The notes below the pieces were generated by a model, which was given only the letters and a program-made list of their open reading frames with translations, was not told the origin of the DNA and did not search any database. Positions 25,952 through 27,963 of a DNA stretch of 64,000 nt are shown one piece after another (the first letter of the stretch is position 1; the number at the start of each line of letters is the position of its first letter). The translations under genes and the position numbers were made by a program. Source of the stretch: Rhizobium sp. Q54 (GTDB lineage: Bacteria; Pseudomonadota; Alphaproteobacteria; Micropepsales; Micropepsaceae); contig CAMAPL010000001.1 of assembly GCA_945860165.1 (NCBI GenBank), positions 124,001 through 188,000 of the forward strand, given 5' to 3'.

Positions 25952-27364
25952 TCAGCCCGGCGTGCCGGGGTCGCGCTCGCCATAGAGCAGCGTGACGTTG
26001 ATGCGGCGGTTGCAATAGCCGGGCTTGAACCGGATCGTGTCGGTCTGGTGGAACAGGTCGGAATCGAAAATCACCGCCCGGTTGGCGCGGTAGGGGATGG
26101 TCAGTGATTTCGCGCCGCTTTGCGCCAGGAAGTCGCGGATGGCGTCCTCGTCCCGGTTGAATTTCGCAAAGTCCCAGTCCAGCGGCGCCGCCCTGTCCCA
26201 CACCACCAGCCCGCCGCTTTCAGGATCAAGATTGGCGCCGTCAGGCGTGATCCAGAAATTGACATTCACCGCCGCCGCGTCGGCATGGATGCCGATCCCC
26301 TCCAGGCTGCTGTCATACTTGAAGCCCCAGATATATTTCAGCGCATGGTCACCGCAGATGTCCGAAAACACGGTGCGGAATTCCTCCACGATCTGGGCCA
26401 GCAGCGGAGCGGAAAAGCCGCTTTCCGGAAAGGCGCCGATATAGCCGGGGTCATAAGCGTCGCGCCACATGGCCGAGCCCCAGCAATAGCGCCGCATGGC
26501 GGCCAGCGCCTCGTCGCTCAGAAGATTGTCGATCACCACGATCTGGGGGCGGTTGCTGCGCCAGGATTGCGCGGCGGCGGCGGCATTGACCGGATTGATG
26601 GCGGGGCCGGAAAGCCGCGCGCCACCTTCGATATGCGGCTTCGCGCCGGTAACGGTAATGCCCGCCTCCTTGAGATAGGCGGCCTACTCGCGGTCATGCT
26701 GCGCCTTGTGCGGCGGCGGCTCATCGCCCACCGCCGACCAAGTCGCTGCGGCTTTCCATCGCTTGAAGAAGCGGTCAAACCCCGCGAACCATTCGGCGAT
26801 CCTGTGACGGACGGCCAGCGACGTACCCCGGTCATACAGCGCCGGCGTAAAATCAGGCTGCAGCGCCAGGGCGCGATCAAAACAGGCCACCGCTTCTTCG
26901 TGGCGCCCCAGCCCGCGCAAGGCATTGCCGCGACTGTGCAGCAGCATGGCGGTGTTGGGCGTGAAGCTCAGCACCAGATCATAGCAAGCCATCGCATCGT
27001 CATAGCGGTGCAGCGACATCGCCGCGTCGCCCTTGAGTTTCACCAGGTCGGTATTGCCCGGCTGGACCGTCAGCGCATGATCGAAGGCCGCCAGCGCCTC
27101 TTCGAAGCGGCCGGCTTCGCGCAAGACTACGCCGTAATCCAGCAGAATATCGAGATCGTCAGGATTGGTCTCCAGCGCGCCGCCGATCAGGTCCAGCGCC
27201 TCGCCGGTACGACCCTGCTGAGCGAGTGTCACACCCAGTGGATGGCGGATTTGCGGATTGCCCGGATGGAGCGCCAGCAGTTCCAGGAAGCCCCGCTCGG
27301 CCTCGACCAGGTCGCCATGGGCCAGCGCGGCCACCGCCAGGTCAAAGAGGAGCTGATTGTCCAT
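25952..27364 (-). pseudogene. TPR-2-oxoglutarate/Fe(II) oxygenase 1, interrupted by TAG
   Basis: A 471-codon paralogue of the downstream gene with the same layout: TPRs at about 1-205 (HGDLVEAERGFLELLALHP, ACFDRALALQPDFTPALYDR), then a 2OG domain with H-A-D in GIGIHADAAAVNVNFW, DSDLFHQTD and NRRINVTLLYGER. Codon 227 is TAG (26684-26686), in the linker between the TPRs and the catalytic domain. The paralogue has Gln about there, so CAG to TAG is likely. A GTG further on (at 26539) could give a free catalytic domain, but no clear ribosome site supports it. It leads the operon downstream of the tRNA-Glu attachment region. Confidence 0.8.
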
Positions 27365-27581
27365 GGGTTCAGACAAATGAAGCCGAGGCCTCTGTCAGGG
27401 GAGAGATTGGTGCGCCATGGCGCAAACAGACTAAAGTGCGACAAAAAAGAATTGGGGTCAGAGTTGACTAGGATTAAGATCGTGCCGGGCTGCGGCCCGG
27501 CTCACGGCGCTATCGCGCGGGCAGTCAATCAAAGCAGGTTTCTCCAGCCGCCTTCGCCGCTGCGCGGCTCGAAGCGGCACT

Positions 27582-27620
27582 CACTTTTTGTAAGCTCGCT
27601 GAGCTCGCTAACAAAAAGTG
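27582..27620. repeat. Inverted repeat CACTTTTTGT ... ACAAAAAGTG
   Basis: Ten-base perfect arms enclose AAGCTCGC-TGA-GCTCGCT. The right arm runs directly into the tRNA-Glu duplicate. It may be a terminator-like or recombination structure at the element border. Confidence 0.6.
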
Positions 27621-27662
27621 GTGCGCCCTAGGGGGGTCCAACCCCTCTTGCAGGAATGAAAA
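27619..27662 (-). repeat. Partial copy of the tRNA-Glu 3' half (attachment-site duplicate)
   Basis: This 44-base stretch matches 27889-27932 with two mismatches (27635 and 27639). It covers the tRNA from anticodon loop to CCA end. It has no 5' half and cannot make a tRNA. Direct repeats of a tRNA 3' end are the usual product of integrase-mediated insertion. Confidence 0.85.
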
Positions 27663-27695
27663 GTCGGACAGAATTTAATGGTTACAAATACTTAG

Positions 27696-27835
27696 CCTCC
27701 CAAACAGTCTAGAATAGACTCTATGTTTTGCTATGTATTGTTTTCACCCTCCCAAACACGCCCGAGAACTAAATGCCCGCAAATCCGGGAGAATCGGCAA
27801 CGGCCCAAAAACCTCCCAAACAGCCTCCCAAACAG
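27696..27835 (+). repeat. Four direct copies of CCTCCCAAACA (arm-type integrase sites?)
   Basis: Copies lie at 27696-27707, 27748-27758, 27812-27823 and 27824-27835, all in the same orientation, the last two exactly tandem. Short direct repeats beside a tRNA core are typical of arm-type binding sites for tyrosine recombinases. No integrase gene is present in the window. Confidence 0.6.
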
Positions 27836-27888
27836 AACCGCTTTGTTCTGTTTTGTTCTAAAAACTGCTTCTAAGTATTTTATTTTGT

Positions 27889-27963
27889 TGGTGCGCCCTA
27901 GGGGAGTCGAACCCCTCTTGCAGGAATGAAAATCCTGAGTCCTAACCGATAGACGAAGGGCGC
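27889..27963 (-). tRNA. tRNA-Glu (anticodon TTC), CCA encoded
   Basis: The reverse complement gives acceptor GCGCCCT/AGGGCGC, anticodon stem CAGGA/TCCTG with loop TTTTCAT (anticodon TTC), T-arm AGGGG-TTCGACT-CCCCT, discriminator A and CCA. Its 3' half is duplicated at 27619-27662. Confidence 0.95.

Follow-up and report, generated by a model that had tools for sequence, protein, structure and literature searches.

Why a tRNA-Glu gene should be followed at a short distance by a second copy of its own 3′ half, with four copies of one short repeat lying between the two, is the question raised by this locus. In the window, that is, the whole stretch of 64,000 nucleotides that was analyzed, a tRNA-Glu(ttc) gene was identified on the minus strand at 27889-27963 by ARAGORN and at 27892-27963 by Rfam (RF00005). 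Its 3′ half (27889-27932, minus strand) recurs on the same strand at 27619-27662 with 42 of 44 positions identical, both changes being in the T arm, and with 270 bases between the starts of the two copies, which is exactly the duplication with two mismatches that the initial annotation had reported. Its orientation can be refined in that, the tRNA gene being on the minus strand, the displaced copy is downstream of the gene. Alignment by blastn showed that the displaced copy corresponds to tRNA positions 32-75; with the anticodon starting at position 34, the direct repeat thus begins in the anticodon loop, and it reaches the 3′ CCA end, as is expected of an att pair. The near copy is therefore treated here as the core of attL, in which the 3′ half of the gene would have been rebuilt by the insert, and the displaced copy as the core of attR. 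No partial copies were found beside the other three tRNAs of the window.

The spacer between the two cores is 226 bp long and contains four perfect copies of CCTCCCAAACA, starting at 27696, 27748, 27812 and 27824, which read TGTTTGGGAGG on the strand of the tRNA. The initial annotation was also exact about these four repeats, and they account for all but one of the five occurrences of the 11-mer in the whole genome (2,484,448 bases); genome-wide, none occurs on the opposite strand, and the reversed control sequence gave none. Among 20,000 sequences simulated with the first-order Markov composition of the spacer, 22 contained any 11-mer four or more times. The spacer was also correctly described as A+T-rich and gene-less: the GC content of 100-base windows across 27650-27949 is 0.37-0.54, as against 0.52-0.73 in most of the surroundings, and no credible gene was seen among the mechanically listed ORFs of the 226 bp. 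An integrase gene, which would mark an autonomous element, is likewise lacking between the cores. The fifth copy of CCTCCCAAACA (G000:C7:50960-50970; L045:1501) is on contig 7, upstream of an ORF that we take to be dnaN-like, and no tRNA was found within the 3 kb examined around it.

Because the four repeats are 5′ of minus-strand ORFs, they might serve as operators or otherwise regulate the genes downstream. The initial annotation had placed the unit directly upstream of an oxygenase operon; the description needs qualifying for the first two ORFs beyond the insert, of which the first (26684-27376, minus strand) encodes a TPR protein and the second (25952-26539, minus strand) matches no Pfam family. 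A regulatory function is nevertheless very improbable, since the genomic copies are concentrated in the att interval and a nearly identical motif flanks tRNA-derived cores by integrase genes both in a congener (G091) and in a viral contig (L159), which are described below.

A search of 69 genus genomes with the spacer returned, apart from the spacer itself, a single significant match, in G091 (E 3.9e-22; next best, 0.033). The match covers 75 bases that are 89% identical to window positions 27814-27888, and the alignment stops at 27814. In G091, the tRNA-Glu gene is followed by these 75 bases and then by the end of an intact ORF of 379 amino acids that matches Phage_integrase (PF00589), a tyrosine integrase. 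The corresponding interval of the window (27814-27888, minus strand) is accordingly designated the P′ arm, as it is homologous to the integrase-proximal side. Its two repeats, at 27824-27834 and 27812-27822 (minus strand; +54 and +66 from the core), are in the same places as two copies of GTTTGGGACA in G091, a sequence that is close to, and not the same as, TGTTTGGGAGG. An integrase at the same tRNA, which the initial annotation had recommended looking for, is thus present in a relative together with nearly the same arm repeats. To look for a second core of G091, its entire genome was searched with a 19-mer allowing up to 3 mismatches, and 74.7 kb of loci at a threshold of at least 29/44; both searches returned the tRNA only. 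No intact element with the arm sequence of the window was seen, G091 itself showing no second copy of the core.

The other two repeats, at 27748-27758 and 27696-27706 (minus strand), start 96 and 44 nt before the displaced core and are designated the P arm sites. The same offsets occur in a second congener, G085, in which a contig (L187, L108; G085:C75:1-12430) starts inside an integrase gene and carries an element of about 11 kb at tRNA-Glu. The integrase fragment is 52% identical to the integrase of G091, and a copy of the tRNA-Glu 3′ half is found 11 kb further on, preceded by GGTTAGACA repeats that start at -96 and -44. The offsets are the same as those of the window, but the arm sequence differs (GTTAGACA in G085 and in the viral contig L189), and no repeats were seen on the P′ side of G085. 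The unit of the window therefore has arm-type repeats on both sides of its cores at spacings known from this family, -96/-44 as in G085 and +54/+66 as in G091.

The G085 element encodes a small terminase subunit, a major head protein and a head maturation protease, along with a replication-type protein. Scanning 11 of its ORFs with PHROGs brought up no tail gene, and seven of the 11 matched nothing. This predicted gene content suggests a capsid-encoding satellite, of a type that we take to be the one named cf-PICI. The contig of G085 that carries the tRNA (the end of L109) finishes with exactly 55 bases, consisting of the 44-base core and 11 bases of flank, and the same 55 bases follow the far end of the element (L108:8015-8069). 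Such an overlap would fit a branch in an assembly at k = 55, with both empty and occupied sites present in the G085 sample. Just past the far core of G085 begins an ORF with a DUF6538 domain (L108:8135-9379) that appears integrase-like by eye.

A site of the same family was also found in a virus. When viral contigs were scanned for the core, four stretches were obtained (L188, L189, L190 and L191). Of these, L189 (IMGVR_UViG_3300006237_000024; 14.4 kb examined of a 44.8-kb contig) contains a 44-nt core identical to the tRNA of the window and has no tRNA gene there. Its arm repeats, GTTAGACA, number two on each side. Those of the P side (-97/-44) are placed almost as in the window (-96/-44), whereas those of the P′ side are nearer to the core (+14/+35), unlike the +54/+66 of the window, and the contig differs further in retaining an integrase and phage-type genes. 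The integrase (PF00589) shares 51% identity with that of G091 and 78% with the G085 fragment; a DNA methyltransferase and an Erf-like annealing protein are among the products of the other genes. The L189 site can be read as a putative unintegrated attP. With G085 and L189, the suggested search for elements ending in the same core was also successful. Of the remaining stretches, L190 and L191 have eleven tRNA genes each and look like phage-borne tRNA clusters, and L188 has tRNA-Glu followed by an integrase fragment (46% identity over 61 amino acids to that of G091); by eye, the flank of L188 resembles that of G066, a congener mentioned below.

The paired-repeat pattern was also scanned for in viral contigs. 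It gave 28 stretches, of which L159 alone appeared att-like by eye, most of the others looking like repeats within coding sequence. In L159 (positions 440-690), tandem copies of TTCCCAAACAG are followed by a core resembling the 3′ part of a tRNA and, on the far side, by two more copies of CCCAAAC; by eye the core is that of tRNA-Pro, and ARAGORN finds no gene. An ORF of L159 matches the PHROG integrase family phrog_1 (1.3e-27) and has no match in Pfam, NCBIfam or PDB. Because these arms adjoin a tRNA-derived core, a motif close to that of the window is placed like arm sites at another tRNA as well. The L159 integrase was not linked to that of G091 by tblastn, so that two distant integrases appear beside nearly the same arm motif. 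A scan of the viral contigs with peptide patterns derived from the G091 integrase returned no relative, the patterns being so specific that L189 (51%) was missed.

Relatives of the G091 integrase occur in 11 of the 69 genus genomes, G091 included, and none was found at E 1e-15 in the genome of the window, which has seven PF00589 matches. A tRNA adjoins the integrase in all nine loci scanned with ARAGORN of the 11 loci found (L140 was outside the scan, and L132, which starts inside the gene, showed no tRNA). Besides G091, two of the loci are at tRNA-Glu, namely those of G085 and G066, and in G066 the integrase, with one stop codon in frame, directly follows the tRNA. Among 10 named relatives of the integrase that were inspected, an 8-mer is present three to four times near the integrase end in Rivra, Caenibius WL and Pan3, a weaker repeat pair was noticed by eye in phiKX1 and Bradyrhizobium 186, and no repeats were seen near the integrase end in the other five.

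The former flank of the tRNA gene can be recognized beyond the displaced copy. Thirty-eight downstream flanks of tRNA-Glu from 37 congeners were compared (of 62 genomes with a match; one flank comprises 11 bases), and two of them align to the sequence beyond the displaced copy, both from base 2 after the tRNA: that of G014 with 83.5% identity over 79 bp and that of G088 with 77% over 62 bp. The flank of G035 is collinear with the window further out (78% over 73 bp). G014 and G088 thus represent the unoccupied sites in relatives that the initial annotation had proposed to look for. In these empty sites an inverted repeat adjoins the tRNA-Glu gene, and its counterpart in the window is at 27582-27620; this palindrome therefore belongs to the 3′ flank of the tRNA itself and has been displaced by 270 bp in the window. 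By eye, a different palindrome is located directly at the tRNA-Glu end in G035, G089, G001, G012, G009, G086, G087 and G008, the sequence of the palindrome at this position varying from genome to genome.

A partial tandem duplication of the tRNA, giving a tRNA pseudogene with unrelated repeats in between, would account for the displaced copy, which is indeed a tRNA fragment with two changes. It would leave unexplained the arm repeats and the offsets common to G085 and G091, the presence of the G091 integrase beside the same 75 bp and the displacement of the palindrome from the tRNA end, and there is hardly any likelihood that it is correct.

What the comparison reveals is a duplicated core with paired arms at the spacing of the family; one of these arms has a homologous counterpart beside an integrase gene in a relative, and in some congeners the site is empty. 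From these sequence relationships it is probable, at roughly four chances in five, that an element of a tRNA-Glu tyrosine-integrase family integrated here and was stripped to its attachment site by internal deletion, the 270-bp unit being what remains. The residue of an integrated element proposed at the outset is accordingly supported by the G091 integrase, the cores of G085 and L189 and the empty sites, and the two observations named in advance as arguing otherwise, an arrangement fixed in distant relatives and repeats unlike integrase arms, were not made; the mini-element mobilized in trans that was offered as the other possibility gained no positive evidence for the 270-base unit.

Formation of the locus would probably start with recombination, by an integrase of the G091/G085/L189 family, between an attP consisting of P arms, the 44-nt core and P′ arms and the tRNA gene, the crossover being in the anticodon loop. 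The tRNA would be rebuilt by the core of the arriving element, and the old 3′ half would be pushed away together with the palindrome. An internal deletion would then remove the integrase gene and all cargo, ending just inside both arm pairs and leaving 53 bp. This interior, at 27759-27811, is the presumed deletion junction. In a comparison of the 53 nt with the C-termini of 20 integrase loci, L177 alone exceeded all 200 shuffles, the match being in residues encoded by the arm repeats. The remaining attL and attR should still be usable by a matching integrase, were one to enter the cell. Because the window has no integrase and no relative of the G091 enzyme reached E 1e-15 in its genome (G000), the cognate enzyme is one that we infer.

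Two points weigh against this stripping by deletion. If the deletion was random, it is a coincidence that all four arms were spared while little else remains, and the offsets that are common to G085 and L189 belong to a different arm sequence, GTTAGACA, the P′ sides also being different. The same junction might be suspected of being an assembly artefact in which two ends of a larger element were joined, as the genome is a 42-contig assembly. The arms have in common just a repeat of 11-14 bases, which is short for a false join, and there is no gap at the junction; moreover, an excised circle would be expected to give the opposite order (P-core-P′). An artefact of this kind is therefore extremely improbable.

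Partial copies of tRNA-Glu were found in six congeners besides the window (G005, G019, G023, G064, G074 and G085), and those of four of them bound small units that bear on the origin of the gene-less unit. Two 3′-half copies in a row, defining tandem cassettes, are present in G019 (L021:5937-10330), G005 (L022, L023) and G064 (L106); G005 has its second copy pair on a contig that lacks the tRNA, and G023 (L028, L029) has one copy 2.5 kb from the tRNA and one on another contig. The five cassettes measured between copies in G019 and G005 are 1141 to 2590 bp long. The first cassette of G019 encodes a TacA-like antitoxin (PF08681), a GNAT-domain protein (below the Pfam cut-off) and a methyltransferase-like protein, and the second encodes a PIN-domain protein and a Phd/YefM antitoxin and gives a weak HTH match. 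PIN, Phd/YefM and RHH genes are found in G023, and a PIN gene in G005, with an RHH gene in its second pair. An ORF of G005 that appeared GNAT-like by eye has no family match, and the two main ORFs of the G064 units match no Pfam family. No integrase was seen among the listed ORFs between the cores, part of which were scanned. At E 1e-15 the search for relatives of the G091 integrase gave nothing in G019, G005, G023 and G064, which have other PF00589 matches.

Over the 112 bases before the core, the four ends of G005 share 70-95% identity and the two of G019 share 76%; between G005 and G019 the values are 47-60%, as compared with 43-49% in five shuffles. For stretches taken 400 bases deeper (n = 5), the values are 45-53%. 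Because the ends are alike and the inner stretches are not, the G019 and G005 cassettes consist of conserved, repeat-bearing ends with unrelated interiors. Repeats of the GGTTAGACA type are located in these ends at about -97/-54, with one at +33 or +34 where a cassette follows; G023 has one repeat per end, and of the two G064 ends just one has a single repeat. The GGTTAGACA doublet occurs in 3 of the 69 genomes at seven places, all of them at tRNA-Glu cores, and a scan of the viral contigs for the cassette-arm doublet GGTTAGACAC at one fixed spacing gave no stretch. In G074 (L107:7044-7930), the copy is longer and degenerate (tRNA positions 16-75) and is located about 0.85 kb downstream, with a TonB-C-domain ORF in between; it represents an event of another kind at this tRNA.

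These integrase-less cassettes with arm repeats at the same tRNA lend some plausibility to a miniature non-autonomous element, in which a gene-less attP of about 270 bp entered the site, or still moves, with an integrase acting in trans. The four perfect and correctly spaced arms, beside which almost nothing has been kept, would also be expected of such an element. However, the unit is present as a single copy, with no insertion polymorphism seen, among the 69 genus genomes, in which nothing but the 75 bp of G091 matches it significantly besides itself. The paired-repeat pattern was found in one of 385 genomes of a class sample, that of the window itself. The lack of a G091-type integrase relative at E 1e-15 in this genome and the two changes in the displaced core also argue against mobility, and a circle of 270 bp is a very small substrate. 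A miniature element is accordingly unlikely, and an integrated element reduced to its attachment site remains the preferred explanation.

In a still broader and rather speculative interpretation, to which we assign little weight, tRNA-Glu would be the docking site in this genus of a gene-cassette system, in which integrase-less units bounded by tRNA-Glu 3′ halves with arm repeats, several of them toxin-antitoxin modules, are added in series by phage or satellite integrases acting in trans. The window unit would then be a limiting case that carries its own attP alone.

On the preferred explanation, stripping by internal deletion, the locus is an unusually clean natural map of an attP, with a core, two P repeats and two P′ repeats calibrated by G091, G085 and L189, and it makes the identification of arm sites testable for integrases of a mostly uncultured group of alphaproteobacteria. 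It also led to the cassettes without an integrase gene that occupy this tRNA in congeners and are relevant to the spread of toxin-antitoxin modules. The literature searched yielded no description of such a gene-less unit, or of cassettes with toxin-antitoxin genes bounded by 3′ halves of a tRNA.

Several known systems are comparable in part. Genomic islands at tRNA genes are marked by a rebuilt target and a displaced fragment, as described for Islander (PMC4383910); the ends of the window unit are of the same kind, although the unit is only 270 bp long and lacks an integrase gene. At ssrA of Dehalococcoides, tandem islands occur, some without integration genes and considered possible CIMEs (PMC3146451). 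These islands resemble the congener cassettes in being arranged in tandem between repeats of the 3′ end of one RNA gene, and differ in depending on the serine recombinase DsiB and a 20-bp ssrA repeat instead of a tyrosine integrase and tRNA-Glu. Integron gene cassettes, which include ORF-less ones (PMC6557892), are likewise small units in arrays that have no integrase of their own and are in some cases gene-less, and by this analogy the congener cassettes are integron-like in layout; the sites of the latter, however, are tRNA 3′ halves with arm repeats, which would imply an integrase that uses arm sites.

CIMEs have lost the genes for integration and transfer and have kept attL and attR (PMC5704250). 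The window unit corresponds to the structural half of this definition, transfer genes being ones that it may or may not once have had, and it is similar to CIMEs in having kept both att sites and lost the integrase, in its location at a tRNA 3′ end and in having related cassettes in congeners. CIMEs are described there as decayed ICEs or IMEs, whereas the window unit is gene-less and is most closely related to a contig of phage type and to an element resembling a satellite: the nearest integrases are those of L189, of G085 and of the element of G091, which is undelimited. The unit of the window is thus an ordinary kind of remnant, distinguished by its full complement of arm repeats in the absence of any gene.
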